Virus record (IMG/VR): IMGVR_UViG_3300023176_002422
Location: 1-24,132 of that record
Strand: one strand, 5' to 3'
Source of the DNA: a virus
Length of the DNA: 24,132 nt
Made by a program: the position numbers and the translations under genes. Shown piece by piece: positions 3,601 through 23,921 of this stretch. The notes below the pieces were generated by a model, which had not been told where the DNA came from, did not search any database, and worked only from the letters and a program-made list of their open reading frames with translations. The first letter of the stretch is position 1; each line of letters opens with the position of its first letter.

Positions 3601-4187
3601 TAGATTGGCCAAAAAACGTAAAAGGAGAAACAGGATGGAGATTTCCTTTTTTCTATGCAGGTATTGATTATATTAAACCTAAAAGTATTTGTGAAATAGG
3701 ATGCTATAGAGGTAAAACTAGTTTACACCTATGTAGGTATGCATTACAATATACAGACGAATTACACTTTGCTGGATATGATTTATTTGATTTAGCAACA
3801 AGAGAAAATGACATTAAAGAAATAAACGGTAAAGGACACGGAAATTATGTTCGCACACAACTTGCTTTAGATAAAATTAAACGTGATTGCAATCCTCATC
3901 GCCCTACATTTTATCAATATAAAAATAAAAAATTTACGTTTGAAATTCACAAAGGCTTTACACAAGATACACTCGAAAAAAGAACGTTTGATTTTGTTTT
4001 TATAGATGGAGGCCACAGTTACGAAACGGTAAAGCACGATTACGAAAAGGTTAAAGGAAGTAAATTAATTTTCTTTGATGATTATAACTTAGAACCTGTT
4101 AGAAAATTTTGTGATGAAATTGGCGCTATTCCATTAGAACAAGACATTGGTCACAAAGTAAGACATTTAGCGTATATACTATCATGA
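3597..4187 (+). CDS. SAM-dependent methyltransferase (Methyltransf_24-like), copy 1
   Basis: I use the ATG at 3597, which overlaps the upstream stop as ATGA, rather than the in-frame TTG at 3588. The 196-residue product has a class I SAM-binding start (SICEIGCYRGKTS, about residues 29-41), GYDLFD at the end of the second strand, FVFIDGGHSYETVKHDY, and LIFFDDYN. The DGGHSYE and FDDY pair is typical of the Methyltransf_24/CmcI-like group, which often methylates sugars or small molecules, sometimes using a metal. Two paralogues lie at 6915-7445 and 9145-9732(-). With copy 3 it shares EINGKG-G, so those two are closest. The substrate is unknown; sugar O-methylation is inferred from the neighbours. 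Confidence 0.78.
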   Translation: MIDWPKNVKGETGWRFPFFYAGIDYIKPKSICEIGCYRGKTSLHLCRYALQYTDELHFAGYDLFDLATRENDIKEINGKGHGNYVRTQLALDKIKRDCNPHRPTFYQYKNKKFTFEIHKGFTQDTLEKRTFDFVFIDGGHSYETVKHDYEKVKGSKLIFFDDYNLEPVRKFCDEIGAIPLEQDIGHKVRHLAYILS

Positions 4188-4969
4188 TATTTTTAAGTAA
4201 AAACGGAACAGACGAATACGTCAATATGTTTGCAAATGGTAGTAATACTATGCCAACTTCAGACAAAGAGTTTGATTACAATGCAACTGCACCAGAACCT
4301 ATTGTGTTACGTGGAATACTCAAACATAAAATTATGAAACAGTGCTGGGAAGACAAACGTGATTTTTACTATATGGATAGTGGGTATTTGGGTAACTATA
4401 AGTCACCAATTAATCCAAACGGATGGAAATGGTTTCATAGAATTGTAAAGAACGATCTTCAACATGGTGATATTATTGACAGACCTAGCGATAGATGGGA
4501 CTCATTAAAATATACAATTCCAAAATGGAAGAAAGACGGCCGCAACATTCTTGTTGTTATGCCAAGCGAAAAACCAGCAAAGTTCTACGGTATTGATATG
4601 GAACAATGGCGTGAAGAAACAATTAGCACATTAAAGCAACACACAGATCGTCCTATTGTTGTACGTGAAAAAGCAGATCGTCCTACACGCATTGTTAAAA
4701 CAATTTATGAAGAATTAGATAATGCTCATGCTGTTGTAACTCTTCAAAGCATTGCGGCAACCGAAGCAGTATTATATGGAGTACCTGCATTTGGATTAGC
4801 ACCCAATGCGGCGTCCCCGGTGTCGCTATCTGACATAACTAAAATAGAACAACCGTACTATCCAGATAGTGATTTGGTATATAAATGGGCCTGCCATTTA
4901 GCATATGGTCAGTTTCATATACAAGAACTAAATGATGGTACAGCACGGAGAATATTAAATGCTAGTTAA
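4184..4969 (+). CDS. GT-B-like family protein, copy 2 (short, altered HP motif)
   Basis: This is the shortest member of the five-copy family (261 residues against 308-343). It keeps PSDRWDSL, the strand ILVVMPSE, TDRPIVVR, AHAVVTLQSIAATEAVLYGVPAF and the LAYGQFHIQELNDG tail. After TDRPIVVR the expected His-Pro is replaced by EKADRP. The N-terminal half is also about 50 residues shorter. If the HP strand contacts the donor, this copy may have lost or changed activity; it could be a partner subunit for another copy. ATGA overlap with the upstream stop and an 11 bp overlap with the next gene fit coupled translation. Confidence 0.68.
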   Translation: MIFLSKNGTDEYVNMFANGSNTMPTSDKEFDYNATAPEPIVLRGILKHKIMKQCWEDKRDFYYMDSGYLGNYKSPINPNGWKWFHRIVKNDLQHGDIIDRPSDRWDSLKYTIPKWKKDGRNILVVMPSEKPAKFYGIDMEQWREETISTLKQHTDRPIVVREKADRPTRIVKTIYEELDNAHAVVTLQSIAATEAVLYGVPAFGLAPNAASPVSLSDITKIEQPYYPDSDLVYKWACHLAYGQFHIQELNDGTARRILNAS

Positions 4970-5990
4970 AGTTTTTATGAATAGTGCAGGACACAACTCG
5001 GAAAGAGAAGTGTTACGTCAAATGTATGATGGTATTGATTATGCTGACAAAACTGCAAATGGTAAATTATCAAAAGAAGAAAGAAAAGAACGCAAAAACC
5101 TAGAAAAAGAAATGGGCATTAAGCGTGGACTACAGTACGAATATGATGAGGAATATCGTCCTTGTGATGTTGCCGTATTCTTAGGAAGTTGGAAACCTGA
5201 ACGAACACGTACATGGCATCTTACAAGAACTAGCATTAAAAAGAATTCTAAATGTTTTGTTGTTATTGAAACCCCGTTACTCGGACGACAGATGTTTGAA
5301 AAAAACACACACTACAGGGTGGGTGTTAATGGCTTTCTAAATCGTGATGCTTTTTGGGGAGACAATGTTAATCGTCCAGGAGATAGATTTAACGAGTTAG
5401 GGTTAATTTATAAAGGTTGGAAAACTAAAGAAGAACTAGGAGACAAAATTATTATTGCATTACAACTAGCAGGTGATGCAAGTTTAAGAAACTTAAATAT
5501 TAATGAATGGTGCGTAGATACGGTAAAAACCTTACGCGAATACACAGATCGTCCTATTGAAATTAGAACACACCCTGGTGTAAGTGAAAAAGGTATGGGT
5601 AACCATGAAGACCTATTTAAAGAATTTGCTTTTGCTAATTTTTCAAATGTAACTTTTGTTAATGGTCGTGACATTCCGTGGGAAGAGCATTTAAAAGATG
5701 CTTATTGTGTTGTTGCTTATTCAAGTGGTTTATCAATTGATGCTGTGCTTAACGGATATCCTGTTATTGCATGTGACGAAGGCAACTTTGCTTGGAATGT
5801 AGCAGAAACTAAATTAAAAAATATTGAAAATCTAAATTTGGCAAACAACGAAGAAGTTTTACAATGGTTGCATAATCTAGCATATTGTCAATGGACTCCT
5901 GAAGAAATGGAAAACGGTGTATGCTGGAGGCATTTGTTGCCGTCGATTGAAAAAGTATTAGCAGAAGTAAAAGCCAATGAAAGTAATTAG
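4959..5990 (+). CDS. GT-B-like 'TDRPI-IR-HP' family protein, copy 3
   Basis: The 343-residue protein is the longest copy. Landmarks are a charged, lysine-rich N-terminal stretch (residues 28-50), PGDRFNELGL, a strand KIIIALQLAGDASL, TDRPIEIRTHPG, DAYCVVAYSSGLSIDAVLNG, YPVIACDEGNFAW, and LAYCQWTPEEMENGVCWRHL. The TDRPI-IR-HP and 'AYSSG-SIDAVL-GYP' pair supports a GT-B-like C-terminal domain. A GGAG at 4947-4950 is 8 bases before the ATG and supports this start. It overlaps the gene before by 11 bp and the gene after by 14 bp. The short DNA around the TDRPI motif is nearly identical to that in copy 2, pointing to tandem duplication. Confidence 0.7.
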   Translation: MLVKVFMNSAGHNSEREVLRQMYDGIDYADKTANGKLSKEERKERKNLEKEMGIKRGLQYEYDEEYRPCDVAVFLGSWKPERTRTWHLTRTSIKKNSKCFVVIETPLLGRQMFEKNTHYRVGVNGFLNRDAFWGDNVNRPGDRFNELGLIYKGWKTKEELGDKIIIALQLAGDASLRNLNINEWCVDTVKTLREYTDRPIEIRTHPGVSEKGMGNHEDLFKEFAFANFSNVTFVNGRDIPWEEHLKDAYCVVAYSSGLSIDAVLNGYPVIACDEGNFAWNVAETKLKNIENLNLANNEEVLQWLHNLAYCQWTPEEMENGVCWRHLLPSIEKVLAEVKANESN

Positions 5991-6915
5991 TTACCTAAAG
6001 GGCATTCCTGCTAACAATAAAAATCCTGAGAAACCTGAAGTATTAAAGAGATTTGTACAGGGAGTAAACCTTAATGGAGATGTAGGAATAGCCTATGAGG
6101 GTAACGAGTGGAGTCTATCAGATGTAGCAGTGTTACAAGGATATGTACACGAAGACTCTCCAAATACACCACACTTATTATTGCGTAAAAAAGTATTTGA
6201 TGAACAAACACGTAATGGTAAGCATACTATTATTGTTGATAGCAATTTATTTTTGTATCTAGATAAAACAAATTCAAAACGTTATCTTCGTTATTCAATG
6301 GACGGTGTATTTCCTACTACAGGAAATTATTTTTGGGATAATCCCGATCCTAGTAGATTTAACAAGTTAAGAATTGAACTTGGCATACACCCTAAGCCTT
6401 GGCGTACAAATGGATCACACATTCTTATTTGTTTACAACGCAATGGCGGTTGGAGCATGAAGGGATTAGATAACCAAGATTGGGCAAGAGAAGTTATTAC
6501 CAAAATTCGAAAGGTAAGCGATCGTCCTATTATTGTTAGGGGACATCCTGGTGATAGACGTGCAGGAAAATATCTTAATCCTAAAGAACGTGCATTTAAG
6601 TTACACGGACTGCGTGATGTTTATATGAGCGATCATTTAAACAAAAGTTTGCAAGATGATTTGCGTAATGCTTGGTGTACAGTTGTTTACAATTCAAGTC
6701 CGGCGGTAGCAAGTGCTATTGAAGGAGTTCCTATTTTTGTTGCTGATCCTGATGATTGTCAAGCAAAAGATGTTGCAAATACAGACTTTGGAAATATTGA
6801 AAAACCAGACACGTTTGATAGAGATTTATGGTTGCAAAAACTTAGTATGTGTCATTGGAACTTTGAAGAATTAAGTTCAGGCGAGGCGTGGAAACATATG
6901 AGAGAATACATATAA
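5977..6915 (+). CDS. GT-B-like 'TDRPI-IR-HP' family protein, copy 4
   Basis: The 312-residue paralogue has DPSRFNKLRIELGI, the strand HILICLQRNGGWS, SDRPIIVRGHPGDRR, AWCTVVYNSSPAVASAIEG, VPIFVADPDD, and a tail LSMCHWNFEELSSGEAWKHM. The tail matches the 'LAY-QW--EE---G--W--L' ending of the other copies. The N-terminal 110 residues diverge, as expected if that half selects the acceptor (inference). The start ATG overlaps the previous gene by 14 bp and the stop overlaps the next start as TAATG. It probably acts on a glycan in the cytoplasm; the substrate is unknown. Confidence 0.7.
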   Translation: MKVISYLKGIPANNKNPEKPEVLKRFVQGVNLNGDVGIAYEGNEWSLSDVAVLQGYVHEDSPNTPHLLLRKKVFDEQTRNGKHTIIVDSNLFLYLDKTNSKRYLRYSMDGVFPTTGNYFWDNPDPSRFNKLRIELGIHPKPWRTNGSHILICLQRNGGWSMKGLDNQDWAREVITKIRKVSDRPIIVRGHPGDRRAGKYLNPKERAFKLHGLRDVYMSDHLNKSLQDDLRNAWCTVVYNSSPAVASAIEGVPIFVADPDDCQAKDVANTDFGNIEKPDTFDRDLWLQKLSMCHWNFEELSSGEAWKHMREYI

Positions 6916-10613: not shown

Positions 10614-11540
10614 ATGATCTTCGGAATGTTCAACGAATTTGGTGCACAAAATTCTTCTCCAGTTTTTGGAGCATTTGAACACAGTCTAAACATAGCAGGA
10701 ATTCCATGGACAAAAAATTTGGATATGTGCCATGTTGCTGTTATATGGAGTGTACTATGGAATGGACGCATGGCGCAAAACAAACGCATTTGGGAACACT
10801 GTGAACAAACCAAAAAGCCTGTGATAGTTTTAGAAGTTGGCGGAATACTTCGTAATCAAAGTTGGAAAGTAGGCATTGGTGGTATAAACAACGAAGCATA
10901 CTTTGGAGAAACATCAACAAGCAGTATCAATAACTGGTTGAGAAATGCAAGCCAACATCGACAAAAACGATTTGGTATTAATTTACAACCGTGGAAACAA
11001 ACAACCCAGGACAAATATATTTTATTATGCACACAACATAATAAAAGTCATCAATGGAGAGACATGCCTAGTGTCGACGACTGGCTTGATGAGCAGTTAA
11101 CCAAGATTAGAAAATACACTTCACGTAAAATTAAAATTAGACCGCATCCTCGCTCTCCGTTAAATCCTAGCACGGTTAGAACACTAGACTTTAAACATAA
11201 AAATGTAGAATTACAATATCCTATTAGATATGCACAAACATATGACGAGTTTGATTTTGACGAAGCACTAGCAGGTGCTCACTGTGTTATAAGTCACAGT
11301 AGCAATCCAGGACTACAATCTGTAATTGCAGGAGTACCGGCGTTTGTAAGCAAAGACAGTTTGGCCCTTCCTGTTGCTAACACAGATTATAGCCAAATTG
11401 AAAATCCAAAAAGACCAGATAGAACACGCTGGTTTAATGACCTACTTTATACAGAATACTTTATAGATGAAATCCAAAATGGATTACCATTGGTAAGATT
11501 ATTACCTAGATTAGAACAATTAGTTCTTGCTCAAAAGTAA
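10614..11540 (+). CDS. GT-B-like family protein, copy 5
   Basis: The 308-residue protein is separated from the other four copies by the - strand operon. It keeps a 'KRFGINLQPWK' version of the DR(F/W) segment, the strand YILLCTQHNKSHQW, YTSRKIKIRPHPRSP, AGAHCVISHSSNPGLQSVIAG, VPAFVSKDS and a PVANTDYSQIENP block that matches copy 1's 'PVAHKDLSQIENL'. TDRPI has become TSRKI, but the R-HP core is intact. The N-terminal half (GAFEHSLNIAGIPW, then HVAVIWSVLWNGRM) looks Rossmann-like. AAGGAG 10 bases upstream supports the start. It is likely transcribed on its own from the late box at 10564. Confidence 0.7.
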   Translation: MIFGMFNEFGAQNSSPVFGAFEHSLNIAGIPWTKNLDMCHVAVIWSVLWNGRMAQNKRIWEHCEQTKKPVIVLEVGGILRNQSWKVGIGGINNEAYFGETSTSSINNWLRNASQHRQKRFGINLQPWKQTTQDKYILLCTQHNKSHQWRDMPSVDDWLDEQLTKIRKYTSRKIKIRPHPRSPLNPSTVRTLDFKHKNVELQYPIRYAQTYDEFDFDEALAGAHCVISHSSNPGLQSVIAGVPAFVSKDSLALPVANTDYSQIENPKRPDRTRWFNDLLYTEYFIDEIQNGLPLVRLLPRLEQLVLAQK

Positions 11541-11578: not shown

Positions 11579-12769
11579 ATGTCAACTATTTCTATTAACA
11601 TTGCTGACCATACCATTGAAGATTGTGTAATGTATCTTGCCGGAGAAGGCAACTACATATTTGGAGAAGATGTTTCTATTCATTCAACCGACTTGCATAT
11701 AGTAAAGAGTCTTGGTAGACAGTTAGGAAACAACAATGCATTTACACAAAAACAAAGTTTAATTGGTTTAAGACTTGTAAAGAAATATTCAAGCCTGCTA
11801 TCTTCTGCAGGATTTAATTCCGAAAAAATTCTAGATGATAAAATTTTTAAATGGCCATTTAGAACAATTGATAGAACTAAAAGTTTATATATTGACGGAG
11901 AAAAAATTGTTCTTAAAAGTCCTTTCATCGCCGATGTTGTAAATCGAGTAAAGAAAAGAAAAACACCTTTCTATTACAAAGGCGAATATAGTGGTGACAC
12001 AAAAGAATGGAGTTTTGATTACAACGAAAATAATGTTGAGTTCTTGGTCAATCTTGTTAATGGTATGAACTTTTCCATTGATGAAAAGATTAAAAATGAT
12101 TTTAAGAAAATAAACGAAATTAAAAAGAAAGCATTAGACCACTATCCTATACTTGTAAAAAAGATGGGAGGATATGTTTACAACGACATAGTAATAGAAG
12201 AACAAGATCCAAGACGTGCAATCATGCAATCAAAACTACAAGGATGTTTGGTATACGATGACGGTGTGGTAGATGCTCTAAAGCCAAAGCAAAAAATGGA
12301 TTCAGTGTTGTTAGGTGATAGTCAAAATTGGTTTATAAACTCTAACATATATTCCTATTTGGACATTTTTTCATTGATCAATACCGTAGATCAGTGTATA
12401 ATTATGTGTAGTAGTAATAACATTGAACAGATTCAAGATATAGTAGGATCTCTTATTTCTGCTGGTTATACTGGTGATGACATTAGTGTAATGTTTAGAT
12501 TTAAAAGTTCTAAGGACTTTTTTGAAGGTAACAAATACATAAAAAATATGAACGTTAATCAGTTTAATCCAAATAAGAAAATTTTTATTATTAATGAAAA
12601 GATACCAAAACCTTTGATTAGTAATAACATTGATCCACAATTAGTTATAAGTTGTTTGCCTACATATCCAAGTCATTATAAGACACAAACTTACTTGGAT
12701 TGCAAACCTACTGTTGTATACTACTGCGGAAGCAAACCAACTGGAGTAGAAAACTGTGCCGACGTGTAA
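11579..12769 (+). CDS. Unknown protein upstream of UvsW, possible HARP-like segment
   Basis: I do not recognise this 396-residue protein. Visible parts: LGRQLGNNNAFTQKQSLIGL and the following LVKKYSSLL (about 45-75); a WPFRTIDRTKSLYIDG segment (92-107); then FYYKGEYSGDTKEWSFDYNE (131-150), whose 'Y---T--W-F' pattern resembles the HARP fork-binding repeat of SMARCAL1-like helicases. The C-terminal third (CIIMCSSNNIEQIQDIVGSL, then KIFIINEKIPKP) could be a RecA-like half domain, but there is no Walker A, DExH or arginine finger motif. It overlaps uvsW by 14 bp and shares its promoter, so a role in recombination or fork repair with UvsW is plausible. Function unproven. Confidence 0.6.
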   Translation: MSTISINIADHTIEDCVMYLAGEGNYIFGEDVSIHSTDLHIVKSLGRQLGNNNAFTQKQSLIGLRLVKKYSSLLSSAGFNSEKILDDKIFKWPFRTIDRTKSLYIDGEKIVLKSPFIADVVNRVKKRKTPFYYKGEYSGDTKEWSFDYNENNVEFLVNLVNGMNFSIDEKIKNDFKKINEIKKKALDHYPILVKKMGGYVYNDIVIEEQDPRRAIMQSKLQGCLVYDDGVVDALKPKQKMDSVLLGDSQNWFINSNIYSYLDIFSLINTVDQCIIMCSSNNIEQIQDIVGSLISAGYTGDDISVMFRFKSSKDFFEGNKYIKNMNVNQFNPNKKIFIINEKIPKPLISNNIDPQLVISCLPTYPSHYKTQTYLDCKPTVVYYCGSKPTGVENCADV

Positions 12770-14216
12770 ACTAGTAATTAAAGATGAAGTAAACGTAAAG
12801 TTTGAAGGACTTGATTTAGAAATGCGTAAAGCATTAACTAATAAGTTCAAGTATGATATTCCTTATGCACGTTACTTGCCAGCATATAAACTAGGACGTT
12901 GGGACGGCAAAGTTAGTTTCTTTGGACTAGGCGGAACAACATATATTAGTATGCTTGAAGACGCACTTCCTTTTTTAGAACAGAAAGGTTGGTATGTTGA
13001 AGTTGAGGATCATAGAGAAACTAGAGATTTACAGTTTACAAACATTACAGAAAACTATTGGAAAGATCAAGGTGCTGTATGGCCAGAAGGACACGTAGCA
13101 GAAGGACAACCAATTGTACTACGTGACTATCAAGTAGAAGTAATTAACAATTTTATTAGCAACCCACAAAGTCTACAAGAAGTTGCTACCGGCGCTGGTA
13201 AGACTATCATAACGGCCACATTGAGTAAGATTTGTGAGCCGTATGGTAGCACAATCGTTATTGTTCCGAACAAAAGTCTTGTTACACAAACTGAAGAAGA
13301 TTATGTAAACGTAGGACTTGATGTTGGAGTATATTTTGGTGATAGAAAAGAACTAGGTCACAAACACACTATTGTTACTTGGCAAAGTCTTAATGTGCTA
13401 GATAAGAAATCAAAGAACCACGAAGCCGCACATACACTAACAGAATTTTTACAAGATGTACGCACAGTTATTGTTGACGAAGTACACCAAGCAAAAGCAG
13501 ATGTGCTTAAGAATTTGCTTACACAAAACTTTGCACACGTTCCTATTCGTTGGGGACTAACAGGTACTATACCAAAAGAACAGTTTGAGTTTCAAGGTAT
13601 TAAAGCAGGATTGGGTGAAGTTATTAATCATATTTCTGCACACGACTTACAGCAAAAAGGTGTACTAGCAAACTGTCATGTAAACATTGTACAAACAGAT
13701 GATGTACAAGAGTTTAGCAACTATCAAGAAGAACTAAAGTATTTGGTTACAAGTGAACATCGCATTGATTGGATAGGTAAACTCGTAGACAAAATTAAAG
13801 ACTCCGGTAATACATTGATTCTAGTTGATCGTATTTCAGCAGGTAAAATGTTGGAAGAAAGATTAGAAAACTCTGTGTTTGTATCAGGAGAAACAAAGGG
13901 TACTGATAGAAAGGAACACTATGACTCAATTAAAGATAGCACTAATAAAATTATTATCGCAACGTATGGAGTTGCGGCTGTAGGAATTAATATTCCTCGC
14001 ATTTTTAATCTCGTCCTTATTGAGCCTGGCAAGTCTTTTGTAAGAGTTATACAAAGTATAGGCCGCGGAATTAGAAAAGCAGAAGACAAAGACTTCGTAC
14101 AAATTTGGGATATCACAAGCAGATGTAAATTTGCGAAGCGACACCTAACACAACGTAAGAAATATTATAAAGAAGCGAACTATCCTTTTACAATAGAAAA
14201 GATAGCAATCGATTAG
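12756..14216 (+). CDS. uvsW: UvsW-type ATP-dependent DNA/RNA helicase
   Basis: This 486-residue superfamily 2 helicase unwinds branched DNA and R-loops and promotes fork regression in T4. An N-terminal UvsW domain (CKLVIKDEVNVKFEGL, then YKLGRWDGKVSFF) precedes the motor. Motor motifs: LRDYQ (122-126), ATGAGKT Walker A (144-150), DEVH box (241-244), LTGT motif III, and QSIGRGIRK motif VI near 435. Length is close to T4 UvsW (about 500). The start is GTG inside the upstream gene's end; GGAG at 12743-12746 lies 9 bases before it, and no ATG occurs before residue 23, so GTG is needed to keep the N-domain. Role: recombination-dependent replication and repair. Confidence 0.92.
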   Translation: MPTCKLVIKDEVNVKFEGLDLEMRKALTNKFKYDIPYARYLPAYKLGRWDGKVSFFGLGGTTYISMLEDALPFLEQKGWYVEVEDHRETRDLQFTNITENYWKDQGAVWPEGHVAEGQPIVLRDYQVEVINNFISNPQSLQEVATGAGKTIITATLSKICEPYGSTIVIVPNKSLVTQTEEDYVNVGLDVGVYFGDRKELGHKHTIVTWQSLNVLDKKSKNHEAAHTLTEFLQDVRTVIVDEVHQAKADVLKNLLTQNFAHVPIRWGLTGTIPKEQFEFQGIKAGLGEVINHISAHDLQQKGVLANCHVNIVQTDDVQEFSNYQEELKYLVTSEHRIDWIGKLVDKIKDSGNTLILVDRISAGKMLEERLENSVFVSGETKGTDRKEHYDSIKDSTNKIIIATYGVAAVGINIPRIFNLVLIEPGKSFVRVIQSIGRGIRKAEDKDFVQIWDITSRCKFAKRHLTQRKKYYKEANYPFTIEKIAID

Positions 14217-16058: not shown

Positions 16059-16500
16059 AAAGAAAAAGTTTCTTGATTTAAAAGCAATGCTTAGTGCTGT
16101 TGATCGCAGAGATAAAGAATGGTATAACAAACTTAGCGACGACGATAAAAAACTATTTGCTCCTTTTATTGCTATGCGTTATGTAAGCAGTGTTAAAGGT
16201 GATAAGTTTTTTCAAGAACACTACTTAGAAATGTGCAATGAATTTGTAAACAAACATCACTGGTCACTAAGCAAAAATCATAAAGGCTTGCTGTGGAAAC
16301 TAATGGCAATGTGCGGTGCTTACGAAAACTTTTTTCATCAGTATCAAGCGGCTCCAAAAAAACAAACAAAGAATAAATTTACACAATTCTTGCTAGACAA
16401 GAATCCTAATATGAAGATGGAAGATGCAGAGTTACTATCAAGTATTATGTCAAAGAAGGAACAAGATCAATACGTTAAAGACTATGATCCAAACAGTTGA
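16051..16500 (+). CDS. 62: Probable sliding-clamp loader small subunit (gp62-like)
   Basis: In T4, gp62 with four gp44 subunits loads the gp45 clamp. This 149-residue all-helical protein resembles the short cyanophage gp62: LKAMLSAVDRRDKEWYNKLS, then DDDKKLFAPFIAMRYVSS (the 'k-f-PFi-nR-lS' signature), a helical middle, a GLLWKLMAMCGAYENFFHQY segment, and a C-terminal 'kMEDAELLSSIMSKKE' helix. T4 gp62 is longer (187 residues). Gene 44 and gene 45 are not in this window, unlike the T4 order 45-44-62. The assignment rests on pattern memory and context in a replication cluster, so it is probable, not certain. Confidence 0.65.
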   Translation: MAEKKKFLDLKAMLSAVDRRDKEWYNKLSDDDKKLFAPFIAMRYVSSVKGDKFFQEHYLEMCNEFVNKHHWSLSKNHKGLLWKLMAMCGAYENFFHQYQAAPKKQTKNKFTQFLLDKNPNMKMEDAELLSSIMSKKEQDQYVKDYDPNS

Positions 16501-17176
16501 ACAACCATATGAGTGCGTACATTGCGGCAAGGCGTTTCAAAAAGAAAAAACGCTGATGGCTCATATGTGTGAGCCTAAACGCAGACATCTACAAAAAGAT
16601 GAAAAGCGTGTACAGGTTGGTTTCCTTGCATTTAATAAATTTTATACAATGGTACAGCGTACTAAACCTAAAACTTATGCAGAGTTTTGTAAAAGCAGTT
16701 ACTATAATGCGTTTGTTAAGTTTGGTAGTTTTGTTAGCAATATTAATCCGTTGTATCCAGAAAAGTTTATTGACTTTGTAATTAAGTCAAATGTAAAATT
16801 AGATCATTGGTGTCGTGATGAATTATACGACACGTATATGTTTGAAATGATAAAAATAGAACCCACTGAATCCGCATTAGAACGCAGTGTTCAAACAATG
16901 CTAGAGTGGGCAGATAAAGAGCAAGCACAGTACAACGACTATTTTAGATATTGTAATTTAAATAGAGCAGTTAACGATATTAGAAACGGACGTCTTAGTC
17001 CTTGGTTATTATTGAATTCAAAATCAGGAAAAGAAATGCTAAGTAAGTTCAATGATGAACAATTAGCAATCGTTGAACCAGTTTTGGATATTCCGTTTTG
17101 GCAAAGGCAATTCAAAGCAAAGCCTGCGGATGTAGAACTAACAAAAGAAATAATCAAGGAGGCACACATTGATTGA
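16484..17176 (+). CDS. Zinc-finger protein of unknown function
   Basis: I start at ATG 16484 (MIQTVEQPYECVHCGK), 17 bp inside the gp62 end, because the frame upstream is only the shadow of gp62. Residues 11-29 form a C2HC finger: C11, C14, H27, C29 in CVHCGKAFQKEKTLMAHMC. The rest (200 residues) is helical with conserved-looking pieces: FLAFNKFYTMVQRTKPKTYA, YYNAFVKFGSFVSNINPLYP, LSPWLLLNSKSGKEML and IPFWQRQFKAKP. A nucleic-acid or protein-binding role beside the clamp loader is plausible. I believe such proteins recur in marine T4-like phages next to gene 62, but the function is not known to me. Confidence 0.7.
   Translation: MIQTVEQPYECVHCGKAFQKEKTLMAHMCEPKRRHLQKDEKRVQVGFLAFNKFYTMVQRTKPKTYAEFCKSSYYNAFVKFGSFVSNINPLYPEKFIDFVIKSNVKLDHWCRDELYDTYMFEMIKIEPTESALERSVQTMLEWADKEQAQYNDYFRYCNLNRAVNDIRNGRLSPWLLLNSKSGKEMLSKFNDEQLAIVEPVLDIPFWQRQFKAKPADVELTKEIIKEAHID
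17156..17162 (+). promoter_or_regulatory. Strong Shine-Dalgarno sequence that fixes a TTG start
   Basis: AAGGAGG, seven bases complementary to the 16S rRNA tail, ends 6 bases before TTG 17169. No ATG lies at that spacing, so the gene at 17169-17480 is most likely initiated from TTG. Confidence 0.75.
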
Positions 17177-17655: not shown

Positions 17656-17842
17656 AAATTACAGTCAATACGATCCAAAGATTCACACTAAAACTAAAGG
17701 AGGCCATGGGTTCGGTATGAAAAAAGGTGTAAAAACAAAAGACTACGAAAGCAGTGGACTTCATTTGATTGAAGTATTCAAATGGGAAGTACCTAAACAT
17801 CTAAAAGAAGAATACGAAAAATTTAAACAAGCAAATGCCTGA
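17624..17842 (+). CDS. Small basic protein of unknown function (72 aa)
   Basis: A lysine-rich protein starting MPRVPRKTTHKNYSQYDPKI, with a glycine-rich middle (KTKGGHGFGMKKGVKTK) and a C-terminal helix (WEVPKHLKEEYEKFKQ). Basic charge suggests nucleic-acid or nucleotide contact (inference). It overlaps the previous gene by 32 bp and the next by 8 bp. Its coding status rests on tight packing in the operon, since it has no known motif. Confidence 0.58.
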   Translation: MPRVPRKTTHKNYSQYDPKIHTKTKGGHGFGMKKGVKTKDYESSGLHLIEVFKWEVPKHLKEEYEKFKQANA

Positions 17843-18413
17843 TATCGATTTAGATTTTTTTGATCGCGACAGTGTGTTAGAAAAATTCAAACACATCAAA
17901 GCCTCACGTGAAGAAAAAGGCGAATTGAAAAAACATAACACAGGTGTTTATTTTCATAATGCTCCTGTTGATCCTTTTACAGATCGTTGCACCCTTGATC
18001 ACAAACTAGCAGAAGATCGAGGATACTTTAAAATTGATATGTTAAATGTTCACATATATGAGCATGTAAAAGACGAAGAACACTTAAATACACTTTTACA
18101 AAAGGAGCCGTTGTGGGAACTACTTACTCACGAAGAATTCAGCAACAACTTATTTCACGTCGCAGAACACAGCACTATTCTAAAAGAAATGAAACCGCAG
18201 AGCATAGAACAATTAGCGGCAGTACTAGCAATTATCCGTCCAGCGAAGAGGAGTTTGCTTGGACAACCGTGGGATACGGTGATGAAGAACGTTTGGACGA
18301 AACCTGAAGACGGAAGTTACTATTTTAAAAAGGCACACGCAGTTGCTTATGCACATGCGATTGTGGTACACATGAATTTATTATGCGAAGAATTAAAAAA
18401 TGAACAACAATAA
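17835..18413 (+). CDS. Miniature DNA polymerase III alpha (DnaE)-like protein
   Basis: The 192-residue protein reads like DnaE with its domains cut down to the catalytic signatures. PDIDLDFFDRDSVLEKF (2-18) matches the palm 'PDIDiDF---R--v' holding two catalytic aspartates. YFKIDMLNVHIYEHVK (64-79) matches 'KfDfLGLktLt', site of the third (D68). LFHVAEHSTILKEMKPQSIE, AAVLAIIRPAK (106-138) matches 'FqleS-gm---l--l-P---eDi-a--AlyRPG'. YYFKKAHAVAYAHA (162-175) matches 'FnKSHAvaYa'. The PHP, thumb, beta-binding and OB domains of the roughly 1,160-residue family are absent. T4-like phages replicate with a B-family polymerase, so this may be an accessory or a repurposed relic. It overlaps both neighbours. 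Confidence 0.75.
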   Translation: MPDIDLDFFDRDSVLEKFKHIKASREEKGELKKHNTGVYFHNAPVDPFTDRCTLDHKLAEDRGYFKIDMLNVHIYEHVKDEEHLNTLLQKEPLWELLTHEEFSNNLFHVAEHSTILKEMKPQSIEQLAAVLAIIRPAKRSLLGQPWDTVMKNVWTKPEDGSYYFKKAHAVAYAHAIVVHMNLLCEELKNEQQ

Positions 18414-18660: not shown

Positions 18661-19035
18661 CTATTTTATCTTTCTAATTAATTGTATTGATTTTCTTTTA
18701 ATACGTTTTTCGGCAATATCATTAAGTCTTACCATATGTCCAAAAATTAATTCAACATCTTTGGTTGCAAAGGTTTTGATTAGTCCTTTAAATTTGTTCA
18801 TTTCAGACTTCATGAATATGTTAATAGGTATTTTGCGATTAGATTCCCACCACCAACTATCTCCGCATTCAAGCAATGCTAGTTTTTGGTTGTCATCTGA
18901 GCAACTAGAGTAATCGTATATGCTCGTAACATTAGAATCTTGATTAATAACGATACCAACGTATTCGATATCCCCGTGTTTAATACAACTTAAAAACGGG
19001 AATTTTTCCTGTAAATCTTCTTGTAGTGTTGTCAT
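18661..19035 (-). CDS. Unknown 124-aa protein
   Basis: I start at the ATG at 19035 (MTTLQEDLQEKFPFLSCIKH). The 18 codons upstream overlap the promoter region and the + strand gene. Recognisable pieces: DIEYVGIVINQDSNVTSIYD, LALLECGDSWWWESNRKIPI and a basic C-terminus (AEKRIKRKSIQLIRKIK). The 'CGDSWWWESNR-iPI' segment looks like a conserved core, but I know no family. A GGA lies a few bases before the ATG, with a TATAAT box (+ strand 19054-19059) further up. It runs opposite to its neighbours and abuts the DksA-like gene's stop. Confidence 0.68.
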   Translation of the reverse strand: MTTLQEDLQEKFPFLSCIKHGDIEYVGIVINQDSNVTSIYDYSSCSDDNQKLALLECGDSWWWESNRKIPINIFMKSEMNKFKGLIKTFATKDVELIFGHMVRLNDIAEKRIKRKSIQLIRKIK

Positions 19036-19043
19036 ACTATTCC

Positions 19044-19051
19044 AATAAATA
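19044..19051 (+). promoter_or_regulatory. Putative late promoter box (AATAAATA), divergent region
   Basis: AATAAATA is one base off TATAAATA, in the gap before a probable structural gene. Initiation would be near 19057, with AGGA at 19059-19062 and ATG at 19073. The same gap holds a - strand TATAAT at 19059-19054, which may serve the opposing gene. A TTGAGC on that strand lies about 15 bases further up, a poor spacing. Confidence 0.45.
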
Positions 19052-19072
19052 ACATTATAGGATGAACTCAAT

Positions 19073-19900
19073 ATGCTCAAGTTACCCATATATATTTATG
19101 AAACCGGTTATACCTTATACAGTGATTTGGATTCCGGGATTAAACAAGGATATACGCCAATGTACACAAAAGACATACAAATTGTGAAAGGTGTCACGAA
19201 CACTGTAAAGTTCACAGTTAAAAACCAGGATCAAAAGCCAATAGATATTAGCGGCGAAACACTAACATTCGTGTTAGTTAACAAGGAAACAGGTGCAGTA
19301 TATGTTGAAAAAGCATGTACTACTGTAGACGACGGTAGCACTGTTGCTACACGTGGTGTTGCTACGCTTACACTGAACGAAAGCGATACAGCAACATTAG
19401 TAAGCAAGTTTTACAAGTTCTCTGTGTACAGAACCGTAAACGGCGCTGGCAAGTATCCTACATATTCAAATACATATTATGAAGTAGCAGGCAATATTGA
19501 AATCGTTGATCAAGTATATCCAGCATTTACAGATTCAACAACACTTCCTAACACAGACTTTACTAGACCATTAACTAATAATTTCTATAGCCATAACGGA
19601 CAAATAACAGAATACTTTAGTTCAATCTATGATGCACAGCCTGAATATAAACGCAATGGTGCTGTTCATACTGTAACATATTACAGCGATGGATATACAG
19701 GCGATCTTACAATACAGGCCACTTTGGACAGCCAAGTTACAGCAGATACAAGTTGGGTAGACTTAACTACTATTAGTCTAACTAGTTCAGACGCTATTGG
19801 TTATGCCAATGTAACTGGTGTGTACAATTATTTAAGATTAAAGCATTTACCTGACAATTCGAACACCGGAACACTTGACAAAGTACTAGTTAGATCGTAA
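19073..19900 (+). CDS. Probable virion structural protein (baseplate/fibre-like)
   Basis: The 275-residue protein has, from residue 30, a BppU-like N-terminal beta domain: MYTKDIQIVKGVTNTVKFTV, then QKPIDISGETLTFVLVNKE. A Thr/Ser/Asn-rich beta stretch with YEVAGNIEIVDQVYPAF follows, and a C-terminal sandwich-like domain (LTIQATLDSQVTADTSWVDL, then GVYNYLRLKHL). Such architecture is usual in tail or baseplate fibres and their attachment proteins. Start uncertain: ATG 19073 has AGGA upstream, but ATG 19160 has AAGGA about 9 bases upstream and begins exactly at the domain, so the shorter 246-residue form may be the real one. Confidence 0.68.
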   Translation: MLKLPIYIYETGYTLYSDLDSGIKQGYTPMYTKDIQIVKGVTNTVKFTVKNQDQKPIDISGETLTFVLVNKETGAVYVEKACTTVDDGSTVATRGVATLTLNESDTATLVSKFYKFSVYRTVNGAGKYPTYSNTYYEVAGNIEIVDQVYPAFTDSTTLPNTDFTRPLTNNFYSHNGQITEYFSSIYDAQPEYKRNGAVHTVTYYSDGYTGDLTIQATLDSQVTADTSWVDLTTISLTSSDAIGYANVTGVYNYLRLKHLPDNSNTGTLDKVLVRS

Positions 19901-19909: not shown

Positions 19910-20926
19910 ATGAATTCGATACAATCTACTATTACGACTGCCTTACCTTCAAAACGAAAGCAAACTCCTAGTGGTTGGGTTTCGTTTGATGCACCTTGCT
20001 GTGTTCATAATGGCGAAGGTGCGGACAAGCGTAAGCGTGGAGGTATAATGTTCAACGGTGACGGAACAGTGAGTTATCATTGTTTTAACTGTGGATATAC
20101 TGCATCGTTTATTCCTGGTAGAAACTTGTCCTACAAGATGCGAAAACTACTAGGATGGTTTGGAATGCCAAATTCAGAAATTACCAAACTTGCTTTGGAG
20201 GCACTGCGAATTAAGGAGGAGACCGTCATAGATGGGAATACCCCTCATATACAGTTGCCTGTTTTTGAAAAGAGAGAACTGCCAGTTGGTGCTCGGCCTT
20301 TTATGGAATGGCATAACTGGAAAGCATTAGAACCAAGCGGATTAGATCCAGAATTCATCAGAGCCGTCGAGTATGTAGTTTATGATCGTGGCCTTGATAT
20401 TGGTGACTATGACTTTATGTGGACCTGCGAAGGATCATATAAAACAAGGCTGATAGTTCCTTTTTATTATCAAGGGGACATAGTCGGATACACTGCTCGT
20501 AAACTAGGCGACGGCTCACCTAAATATATTACAGATAGTCAACCGGGTTATGTTTTTAACCTAGATGGACAAGGCTGGGATAGACAGTTTGTTATTGTAG
20601 TAGAAGGACCGTTTGATGCAATAAGCATAGGCGGCGTAGCAGTATTACGTAACGAAGTAAACGACCAACAAGCAATGCTAATAAACAGTTTGCAAAGACA
20701 GGTTATTGTTGTTCCTGATAAAGATCAAAGTGGAGAACAATTGGTTACCGATGCGATTAAATATGGATGGACTGTTGCTTTTCCAGATTGGCCTGATGCT
20801 GATGTAAAAGACGTTGCTGATGCTGTTAAACGTTATGGTAAAATATACACAATGCAAAAGATTATTCATAGTGTTACTAGTGGAATTAAAATACAACTTC
20901 TGGCAAAAACTTACTTTGCAGATTAA
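19910..20926 (+). CDS. 61: DNA primase (gp61-type)
   Basis: The 338-residue protein makes RNA primers for lagging-strand synthesis together with the gp41 helicase. It has a zinc ribbon at 30-61 (CCVHNGEG, then CFNCG: C30/C31, H33, C58, C61), a linker, an RNA-polymerase-like region with YKTRLIVPFYYQGDIVGYTA and SPKYITDS, and a TOPRIM fold: VVEGPFDA (E232) and VVPDKDQSG (D270, D272). Length equals T4 gp61 (about 340). The next in-frame ATG is at residue 47, inside the zinc ribbon, so ATG 19910 is the real start. It is expressed from its own sigma70-like promoter. The helicase follows after 25 bp. Confidence 0.92.
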   Translation: MNSIQSTITTALPSKRKQTPSGWVSFDAPCCVHNGEGADKRKRGGIMFNGDGTVSYHCFNCGYTASFIPGRNLSYKMRKLLGWFGMPNSEITKLALEALRIKEETVIDGNTPHIQLPVFEKRELPVGARPFMEWHNWKALEPSGLDPEFIRAVEYVVYDRGLDIGDYDFMWTCEGSYKTRLIVPFYYQGDIVGYTARKLGDGSPKYITDSQPGYVFNLDGQGWDRQFVIVVEGPFDAISIGGVAVLRNEVNDQQAMLINSLQRQVIVVPDKDQSGEQLVTDAIKYGWTVAFPDWPDADVKDVADAVKRYGKIYTMQKIIHSVTSGIKIQLLAKTYFAD

Positions 20927-20951: not shown

Positions 20952-22382
20952 ATGCAAGACTTTAATACAGACATACAAAAACTATTTTTAGAAATGTTTC
21001 TAGCAGATGCGGAAGCATTTGTAAGATGTCAAGGCATCTTTGAAAGCGAAAACTTTGATCAAAAACTACGTGAAGGTGCAGAGTTTATCAAGAAGTATGT
21101 TGACGAATATAAAGTTATGCCTGAACTTGATATTGTTAACAGTGCATGCCAAACAAATTTAAAAGATGCTAGTGCGGTAGGACAAGAACATACAGATTGG
21201 TTATTGGATACATTTGAAAAGTTTAGCAGACACAAAGCACTAGAACGTGCAATTCTAAAAGGTGCTGACTTACTTGAAAAGGGTGAGTATGGTCCTATTG
21301 AAGGCATGATTAAAGAAGCAATTCAAATTGGTCTTGCAAAAGATATGGGTACAGACTACTTTGCTGATCCTAGAGCAAGACTTGAAGGATTAAAAGATAA
21401 CAACGGACAGGTAAGCACAGGTTGGCCAAGCATTGACAAGAAATTGTTTGGTGGTTTTAACAGAGGCGAACTAAACATTTTTGCAGGTGGTTCGGGTGCA
21501 GGTAAAAGTTTGTTCTTGCAGAACATGGCTGTAAACTTTGCAACAGAAGGCATGAACGTGTTGTACATTAGTTTAGAACTTTCAGAAGCACTAACAGCAA
21601 TGCGTATTGACAGTATGCTTACAGGTATTGCTACAAGAGAGATTTTTAAAAGTCTTGATGATGTAGAAATGAAAGTTAGAATGATGGGCAAGAAGTCAGG
21701 CAAGATACAAATCAAGTATATGCCAAGTGGTAAGAATGCAAATGACCTGCGTAGTTATGTTAAAGAATGGTCAATTAAAAACAAGTGCAAGCCAGATGTA
21801 TTGTTAATTGACTACCTAGATTTGATGATGCCACTAAGTGTTAAAGTATCGCCAAGTGATTTGTTTGTAAAAGACAAATATGTATCAGAAGAACTACGTA
21901 ACTTGGCAATGGAACTAGGTTGTGTATTTGTAACAGCATCGCAGTTAAACAGAGCGGCGGTTGAAGAAATTGAATTTGATCATTCACATATTTCAGGCGG
22001 ACTTAGTAAGATTCAAACTGCTGATAACGTGATTGGTATCTTTACAAGCCGTGCTATGAAAGAACGTGGACGTTATCAAATACAGTTTATGAAAACACGT
22101 TCATCGAGCGGTGTAGGACAAAAAGTAGATCTAGAGTTTGATGTGGATAGTTTGCGTATTAGAGATCTTGCAGAAGACGAACAAAATAATTATCAAAGTC
22201 AATCAAGCACCATTGTAAACAATCTTAAAAAGACTAGCACAGTATTAGAATCACATCATGATGCAGGAGAAGAAACTGCACTACGCGAGCCAGGCGATGG
22301 TGATACTGTTGGAAAGATTAGCGGTAAAGCACAAAGTACTAAACTACGTGACATGCTTAAGAGTTTAAACACAGAGGATTAA
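20952..22382 (+). CDS. 41: Replicative DNA helicase (gp41, DnaB-like)
   Basis: This 476-residue hexameric helicase unwinds the fork 5' to 3' and carries the primase. The N-domain is helical (LFLEMFLADAEAFVRCQGIF). The RecA-like motor starts near 150 with TGWPSIDKKLFGGFNRGELN. Motifs: Walker A GGSGAGKS (179-186), catalytic glutamate in YISLELSE (E209), Walker B VLLIDYLDLM (D287), and VTASQLNR, the DnaB H3 motif. RYQIQFMKTRSSSGVG holds the arginine-rich C-terminal motif. A low-complexity tail of about 70 residues follows; gp41 tails bind other replisome proteins. Length matches T4 gp41 (475). It has its own sigma70-like promoter and abuts the oxygenase gene. Confidence 0.93.
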   Translation: MQDFNTDIQKLFLEMFLADAEAFVRCQGIFESENFDQKLREGAEFIKKYVDEYKVMPELDIVNSACQTNLKDASAVGQEHTDWLLDTFEKFSRHKALERAILKGADLLEKGEYGPIEGMIKEAIQIGLAKDMGTDYFADPRARLEGLKDNNGQVSTGWPSIDKKLFGGFNRGELNIFAGGSGAGKSLFLQNMAVNFATEGMNVLYISLELSEALTAMRIDSMLTGIATREIFKSLDDVEMKVRMMGKKSGKIQIKYMPSGKNANDLRSYVKEWSIKNKCKPDVLLIDYLDLMMPLSVKVSPSDLFVKDKYVSEELRNLAMELGCVFVTASQLNRAAVEEIEFDHSHISGGLSKIQTADNVIGIFTSRAMKERGRYQIQFMKTRSSSGVGQKVDLEFDVDSLRIRDLAEDEQNNYQSQSSTIVNNLKKTSTVLESHHDAGEETALREPGDGDTVGKISGKAQSTKLRDMLKSLNTED

Positions 22383-22949
22383 ATGTTTAAAGTACTACCA
22401 AATTTTTTACCACAATCAGAGTTTGACAGTGGCGTTGGCAGAGTAAGACACGATCCTAGCATACCTTGGTTTTGGGTACGTGGTACAAGTGATGTTAAAA
22501 GAGATCTTGACGACGATGCAGATTGGGATCACAGTTTTGCACACACGGCATACGAGTTTGGAGAACCCACAAGTTTCTTAGGAGTTAAATGCGAAGACAT
22601 TCTTAAAAGAGCATGTGAACAAGCAGATTTAAAATTAAAAAACATTTTAAGAATACGTTTTGGTTTAATTACAAAAACACCAACACCAATTGAACACGGT
22701 GGTCATGTAGACTTTAAACAACCGCACATGACAGCACTATATTATCTTACAACTTGTAACGGTCCTACTATATTCTACGAAGAAAAATGGAGCGAAGATG
22801 TAGAACATACAGAACTTACAGAAGCAAGACGTGTACCCGCAGAAGAAAACAAAATGCTTATATTTGACGGTACAACATATCACAGTTCAGTTTCACAAAC
22901 AGATACAAAGCAACGTATCGCAATCAATTTTAACTTCGAAATAGAGTAA
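22383..22949 (+). CDS. 2OG-Fe(II) oxygenase (prolyl 4-hydroxylase-like)
   Basis: The 188-residue double-stranded beta-helix enzyme has the iron triad and co-substrate arginine: HVD (H108, D110) in EHGGHVDFKQPHMTALYYL, H167 in TTYHSS, and R178 in KQRIAINFNFE. The family uses 2-oxoglutarate and O2 to hydroxylate proteins, nucleobases or small molecules. These genes are frequent in marine T4-like phages, usually with unknown target. The start directly follows the helicase stop (no gap) with AGAGG just upstream, so it is translationally linked to replication genes. A DNA- or protein-modifying role is only inferred. Confidence 0.85.
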   Translation: MFKVLPNFLPQSEFDSGVGRVRHDPSIPWFWVRGTSDVKRDLDDDADWDHSFAHTAYEFGEPTSFLGVKCEDILKRACEQADLKLKNILRIRFGLITKTPTPIEHGGHVDFKQPHMTALYYLTTCNGPTIFYEEKWSEDVEHTELTEARRVPAEENKMLIFDGTTYHSSVSQTDTKQRIAINFNFEIE

Positions 22950-23241: not shown

Positions 23242-23355
23242 ATGATAAAAATTTTTAAATTGATATTAAACAGTTGGCGTTTAATGGATAGCGAATACGG
23301 AGAAATCTGTAAAAAATGCCCGCAAGCACATCAATACCATTATCCGTATTTTTAA
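23242..23355 (+). CDS. Possible small protein with Cys/His cluster (37 aa)
   Basis: A short frame starts at ATG 23242 (MIKIFKLILNSWRLMDSEYG) and stops at TAA 23353-23355, 8 bp after the previous gene. The second half is ICKKCPQAHQYHYPYF: C-x2-C, then H-x3-H, a spacing that could bind zinc. It fills the only otherwise empty stretch of this region and overlaps the convergent yqgE-like gene's stop by 4 bp. There is no clear ribosome site, so coding is moderately likely only. Confidence 0.45.
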   Translation: MIKIFKLILNSWRLMDSEYGEICKKCPQAHQYHYPYF

Positions 23356-23921
23356 TTAAAATAAGAATTTACAGAGTTTGAAATAGCAACTGCTGTTGAT
23401 TCTTGCCAAAGTTTACTAACAGGACGTTCTAGTATGTTAGGTGGGCATTTTTGTGTTAACCATCGATGCTGTGGTGTCCAAGGCGGTTCTCCACTCATTT
23501 CACCTTCTAGTTGTCCGCCCTTCCAAGAACTTATCCCTATTGCTAATCTCCATCGACTAGGACCTCTTCCATTTGCAAGTTCACGCAATATTGTTTCACT
23601 ACCAGTAACACAAAGGGTATTTGTTACCCAATATGTATTAGAAGCAAGACAGTCAGGTGTATGAATAAAATAAAGGCTGTCTTCTTGTACAGGACCTCCA
23701 ATATATACAGGCTCTTGGCTTTGATAATCTATGTTAAGTGACTTTGCAATATCACCCACTGTTGTTGTGGTGCTAGGTCTATTAAGCATTATACCCCACG
23801 CTCCGCTGGCGTGATTTTCACATACCAACACAACACTCTGTGCAAAGAATGTGCTGTTAGCACTTGGTTGTGCAATTAATAATTGCCCTTGTAGTCCAGA
23901 ATTAAATTGTACCGAATCCAT
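23352..23921 (-). CDS. YqgE/AlgH (DUF179) family protein
   Basis: The 189-residue protein shows the whole family pattern: LQGQLLIAQPSANSTFFAQS, VVLVCENHASGAWGIMLNRP (31-49), EPVYIGGPVQEDSLYFIHTP (70-89), a VTGSETILRELA segment, GPSRWRLAIGISSWKGGQLE (120-139) and a Trp following (PPWTPQ). Bacterial YqgE/AlgH is about 185 residues, so this is full length. Its role is unclear in bacteria; AlgH was linked to alginate regulation in Pseudomonas. It is unexpected in a phage and may have been taken from a host. It has its own late-type box upstream and runs opposite to the preceding genes. Confidence 0.85.
   Translation of the reverse strand: MDSVQFNSGLQGQLLIAQPSANSTFFAQSVVLVCENHASGAWGIMLNRPSTTTTVGDIAKSLNIDYQSQEPVYIGGPVQEDSLYFIHTPDCLASNTYWVTNTLCVTGSETILRELANGRGPSRWRLAIGISSWKGGQLEGEMSGEPPWTPQHRWLTQKCPPNILERPVSKLWQESTAVAISNSVNSYFN

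Follow-up and report, generated by a model that had tools for sequence, protein, structure and literature searches.

The 192-residue protein encoded at 17835..18413 (+) in the 24,132-nucleotide stretch of viral DNA analysed here (the window) is very probably the catalytic C-terminal subunit of a minimal C-family (DnaE-type) DNA polymerase built from two chains. The protein comprises DnaE from the PDIDIDF motif (residue ~399 of E. coli Pol III alpha) as far as the end of the fingers, less the thumb. We assign it as the C-terminal half of a two-part enzyme because the first part of the palm is missing from it and is supplied by a second gene in its relatives. A minimal Pol III alpha divided between two proteins has been described in group 2.2 jumbo phages, where an N-terminal NTP-binding protein and a C-terminal Mg- and template-binding protein occur beside a T4-like B-family polymerase (Iyer et al. 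2021, PMC7824862), and the window protein is most likely a further member of this set. A C-family miniature in such a setting, judged unexpected in an earlier reading of this DNA made from the sequence alone (the sequence-only reading), is for that reason less so. The split arrangement itself is thus already described, and what is added here is the exact split point, the residue correspondences and a high-confidence model of the fold.

The open reading frame was found exactly as the sequence-only reading had given it, on the plus strand and with four DnaE motifs in order. These are PDIDLDF (residues 2–8, 17838..17858), placed by hmmsearch alignments to Pol III alpha chains and by published assignments (PMC3919608); FKIDMLN (residues 65–71), whose FKID portion (18027..18038) holds K66 and the equivalent of E. 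coli D555, D68, as indicated by alignment and invariance; the segment LFHVAE...MKPQSIEQLAA..AIIRP (residues 106–136); and FKKAHAVAYA (residues 164–173, 18324..18353), which aligns with NKSHSAAYA and corresponds to the fingers O-helix (PMC8485763). A further stretch, KKHNTGVYF (17928..17954), probably corresponds to the KHxGGVV strand located after the thumb in DnaE, judging from sequence resemblance and from the order of strands in the model. Comparison with a Pfam profile, proposed earlier as a check, did return DNA_pol3_finger in a single-sequence scan, though at E=0.015 and so below the cut-off, and the corresponding NCBIfam scan gave a weak match to polc (E=0.098). Since the single-sequence Pfam score is weak, membership of the DnaE family has to be established at the level of the protein family, and here the match is significant: PHROG 11778, “DNA polymerase”, is matched with E=1.4e-66 over residues 3–186.

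Relatives of the protein are present in 63 cultured phage records, all less than 60% identical to it, and 61 of these align over at least 80% of the query. At least 599 stretches in IMG/VR encode relatives as well, so that a replication enzyme of this kind would be widespread in nature. Among 112 non-redundant relatives (sequences less than 85% identical), the invariant residues are D3, D5, D7, R11, H34, G37, P44, K66, D68, N71, W94, P121, I134, R135, P136, K138, F164, K165, H168 and Y172; H34 and G37 lie in the KKHNTGVYF strand. Comparison with nine close relatives gave dN/dS values of 0.09–0.16 for the gene, indicating purifying selection. The PHROG match, the many relatives, the invariant residues, the low dN/dS and a predicted fold like that of Pol III alpha together show that the motifs are not a product of chance, and that 17835..18413 is a real, widespread gene.

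The fold was predicted with AlphaFold2 from the 112-row alignment, which yielded a model with pLDDT 94.9 and pTM 0.84; the single sequence alone gave pLDDT 37. In a Foldseek comparison with the PDB, C-family polymerases fill all of the top 13 matches to the model, and they likewise make up the 15 best rows obtained with VIA-align. The latter placed 190 of the 192 model residues on residues 461–841 of Taq Pol III alpha (3e0d) with Z 9.8 and an rmsd of 3.8, as compared with a Z of only 3.3 for the best unrelated chain. The model, which was set against the Taq palm and fingers as the sequence-only reading had suggested, thus has a Pol III alpha fold, and with the motifs and PHROG 11778 it bears out the palm and fingers homology claimed there. 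The 190 residues are stretched over 381 residues of the Taq chain, and the modelled region covers the palm, from PDIDIDF onward, and the fingers, with no thumb between them. The missing thumb is also evident from the spacing of the motifs, in that D5 and D68 are 63 residues apart, as against 152 for the equivalent E. coli residues D403 and D555. No match to PHP, tandem HhH or clamp-binding regions was found in the 192-residue chain, nor is there room for them, and the claim that PHP, thumb, clamp-binding and OB parts are absent from this chain stands.

Profile alignment to solved chains equates M1-P2-D3-I4-D5-L6-D7-F8 with residues 399–406 of E. coli alpha. The catalytic residues of the E. coli enzyme are D401, D403 and D555 (PMC3919608; PMC8485763), and because of this their equivalents here are D3, D5 and D68, which we regard as the likely catalytic aspartates on the strength of the alignment. 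The set D5/D7/D68 put forward in the sequence-only reading was off by one aspartate. D7 aligns with E. coli D405, a position occupied by Asp in DnaE and by Asn in PolC (PMC3919608). H168 aligns with E. coli H760, the presumed steric gate against ribonucleotides (PMC8485763), and would presumably serve as the gate for deoxyribose in the phage protein. The three aspartates, K66, R135 and H168 are all among the invariant residues listed above.

The palm of DnaE also requires a GRGS segment that lies ahead of PDIDIDF. This nucleotide-binding segment is absent from the 192-residue chain, which begins downstream of it, and in relatives a second protein of about 170 residues supplies the GRGS part of the palm. 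In phages CBB and Atu_ph07 these N-half proteins, gp328 and gp316 respectively, are 172–177 residues long and match PF07733 with E=2e-8 and 5e-9 over profile positions 18–95 of 260; the N-half family is PHROG 11127, “DNA polymerase”. The two halves are complementary on the PF07733 profile, the N-half occupying positions 18–98 and the C-halves resuming at 92–112. Mapped on E. coli alpha, the N-half stops at residue 393 (the end of the N-half profile) and the C-half starts at ~399, so that the break sits just ahead of the metal-binding strand that carries the first metal-binding aspartates. A profile in which the N- and C-halves were joined matched Mycobacterium tuberculosis DnaE1 (5lew) with E=1.5e-10 in a single alignment that crosses the junction, compared with 1.1e-3 and 3.5e-3 for the separate N and C profiles. 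The N-halves gave no PHP match, and no natural fusion of an N-half with a C-half was seen at the loci examined. These results bear directly on the suggestion that the 192-residue protein acts by itself, as a miniature polymerase or terminal transferase that needs no partner. Such an enzyme would have the steric-gate histidine and the full set of three catalytic aspartates in one chain, and that chain is predicted to fold alone with high confidence; however, it would lack the first part of the palm, whose GRGS segment contacts the incoming nucleotide, and relatives carry precisely this part as a separate conserved gene. We therefore consider a stand-alone enzyme very unlikely.

If the 192-residue protein is one subunit of a split polymerase, its partner should accompany it. 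Both halves, together with a B-family polymerase, are present in all four cultured phages checked. Of nine IMG/VR contigs longer than 220 kb that bear the N-half, eight also carry the C-half, and the N-half is present in five of the seven C-bearing contigs of at least 180 kb. The three exceptions are explained by contigs that do not cover the other locus. Contig G028 (280 kb) has no N-half and by synteny stops ~4 kb short of the N locus, its end corresponding to 187.6 kb in G100 and 188.0 kb in G101, where the N-half lies at 191.4–191.9 and 191.9–192.4 kb; G090, also without an N-half, is likewise devoid of the genes that neighbour the N locus; and G078, without a C-half, lacks the helicase, primase and UvsW homologues too. 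Thus every large contig checked that covers both loci carries N as well as C. The correlation of the N and C trees in a mirror-tree comparison was r=0.89, which fits co-inheritance only and is no proof of interaction. No N-half was found in the 24-kb window itself. Three long contigs of related C-bearing phages do not cover the N locus, among them the nearest, G005 (116 kb), which is the longest contig of the window's close clade and has a C-half 88% identical to that of the window. Because the N-half is absent from the window and its locus is not covered in G005, we infer its presence in this phage from sister lineages. Initial searches of IMG/VR contigs, with N-half profiles of 2 and 10 rows, had given matches only in a separate single-chain DnaE, described below.

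The conserved partner also weighs against a role as decoy or inhibitor, in which the protein would shut off host replication by binding the Pol III holoenzyme of the host or by competing for its substrates. Likeness to the core of the host replicase is what this idea has in its favour, but the catalytic residues and the steric gate are invariant, a complementary catalytic partner co-occurs with the protein, the PHP, clamp- and tau-binding regions on which other subunits dock in alpha are missing, and phages of many unrelated hosts have retained the gene. A decoy function finds no support in these data and is extremely unlikely. As a separate matter, a DnaQ-like proofreading subunit was considered as an obligatory partner and rejected, RNase_T being above the cut-off in only 3 of 12 records, although some of these are fragments.

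The C-half gene lies in a T4-like replication neighbourhood, as had been claimed. Upstream is a UvsW-like DNA helicase (12756..14216, +; phrog_16, E=9.9e-78), and two conserved neighbours lie downstream, a T4 gp61-like DNA primase (19910..20926, +; phrog_47, E=3.1e-33) and a T4 gp41-like, DnaB-type replicative helicase (20952..22382, +; phrog_19, E=1.2e-73; Pfam DnaB_C). No family B DNA polymerase was found in the 24-kb window; one is present in G028 and in the four cultured phages. Downstream of the C-half in CBB, Atu_ph07, Paride and Phosso come a small gene on the opposite strand, another one or two genes, and then primase and/or DnaB-type helicase genes (a single annotated primase/helicase in Atu_ph07). 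The window has the same order, with the C-half at 17835, an opposite-strand ORF at 18661–19089, a virion-like ORF at 19073, the primase at 19910 and the helicase at 20952, and it contains one extra inserted gene, a DksA-type zinc-finger protein at 18400. The N-half is located elsewhere, in CBB and Atu_ph07 a few genes away from the clamp loader. Two other genes of this region are worth recording. The small gene at 18661–19089 (-) belongs to PHROG 11637 and is conserved beside the C-half, and a relative of CBB gp288 also adjoins the C-half in contigs G028 and G090. At 16424–17176 there is a conserved replication-cluster protein of PHROG 11058 with an N-terminal C2H2-like zinc finger, which likewise accompanies the C-half in G028 and G090.

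In the two-chain polymerase that we favour, the N and C chains would come together at the break, immediately ahead of the first metal-binding aspartates, to restore a single pol-beta-like active site in which D3, D5 and D68 would hold two Mg ions, the GRGS of the N-subunit would hold the incoming dNTP, and H168 would exclude ribose. The arginine of the DnaE FERFL motif is replaced by Glu in the N-halves (FSEFL/VNEFL), and for this reason the combined active site may differ from that of DnaE. This substitution, the lack of a thumb or any known DNA-binding module, and the presence of a B-family replicase in any case are all in keeping with another reading, in which the two halves do associate but serve the replisome in a structural or regulatory capacity, or act as a nucleotidyltransferase on some other substrate. 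We regard this as improbable, since the equivalents of D401, D403 and D555, the lysine, the RP pair and the equivalent of H760, the deoxyribose gate, are strictly retained and dN/dS is low, both of which point to templated dNTP chemistry. It is nevertheless unusual for a polymerase to have no thumb at all, so DNA binding would depend on the partner chain or on another protein.

What such a polymerase would be used for can be suggested only tentatively. In Bacillus, DnaE extends RNA primers for PolC. Since thumb, PHP and clamp motif are all missing from the phage protein, and primase and helicase genes follow shortly downstream of its gene, synthesis may be short and distributive, for example the extension of RNA primers ahead of a switch to the B-family polymerase. 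We consider this role possible though rather doubtful, its sources being gene neighbourhood and analogy. The same tentative standing applies to the fuller scheme of a split, thumbless, PHP-less C-family enzyme that extends primers, is coupled to primase and helicase and hands off to the B-family replicase; if true, it would represent a division of labour between two polymerases, with a bacterial-type and a eukaryote-type enzyme in one phage replisome. Gap or repair synthesis is an alternative role, and Iyer et al. proposed that the split Pol III alpha possibly cooperates in synthesis of one strand or in repair (PMC7824862).

The window protein belongs to the same family as the split Pol III alpha of jumbo phages (PHROG 11778 for the C-unit and 11127 for the N-unit) and, to judge from its relatives, would probably share the N/C division, the distant loci and the accompanying B-family polymerase; it differs in coming from a fragment of an uncultured phage and is 47% identical to the Atu_ph07 protein and 49% to that of Phosso. 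Of bacterial DnaE (E. coli, Taq, M. tuberculosis) it retains the palm and fingers fold and the equivalents of D401/D403/D555, D405 and H760, whereas the phage form is split into two chains, has 192 residues here as compared with about 1,160, and is without a detectable PHP, thumb, HhH, clamp-binding or OB domain. PolC from Geobacillus (3f2b) has the same fold over 186 residues (Z 9.3), but D7 of the phage protein is the DnaE-type Asp where PolC has Asn (PMC3919608), and the exonuclease and OB architecture of PolC is lacking. In earlier work the authors of the CBB study reported only the N-half and described it as truncated (PMC5259590), a marine survey recorded PF07733 in about half of one cluster of marine jumbo phages (PMC9123017), and Iyer et al. 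took the minimal forms as a model of ancestral Pol III (PMC7824862). Targeted searches of the open literature found no biochemical study of the split polymerase, and a 2026 review of jumbo phages does not mention DNA polymerase. With the split point, the corrected residues and the predicted fold in hand, the idea of a split polymerase becomes directly testable with two proteins of fewer than 200 residues. Two broader questions are touched on, namely how little of the bacterial replicase suffices to synthesise DNA, and for what reason a phage with its own T4-type polymerase should maintain another, unrelated polymerase core divided between two proteins.

A different C-family protein, of 543 residues and without a PHP domain, is encoded just after the gp41-type helicase gene in some relatives that also carry the C-half (loci L091, L092 and L093 in contigs G022, G044 and G045, and possibly L387 in G089). 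It is a single chain with a thumb region and a C-terminal OB-like part, and matches PF07733 with E=6.7e-44. It is a distinct second gene and no fusion of the N- and C-halves.

Several other genes in the window may be mentioned. Near the replication cluster, on the opposite strand, 23352–23921 (-) encodes an AlgH/DUF179 (UPF0301) protein (Pfam E=5.6e-34), usually a bacterial gene. The protein at 22383–22949 matches PHROG 274, “DNA endonuclease V”, and also the 2OG-Fe(II) oxygenase family PHROG 81, so that the endonuclease label looks doubtful. Five apparent paralogues of similar length with a TDRPI-like xIRxHP motif are found at 1805–2752, 4184–4969, 4959–5990, 5977–6915 and 10614–11540; the one tested, as 5977–6912, had no Pfam match. 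Finally, 319–1128 encodes a cytidylyltransferase-like domain fused to a cupin of the mannose-6-phosphate isomerase type, a combination that is probably concerned with sugar-nucleotide chemistry.
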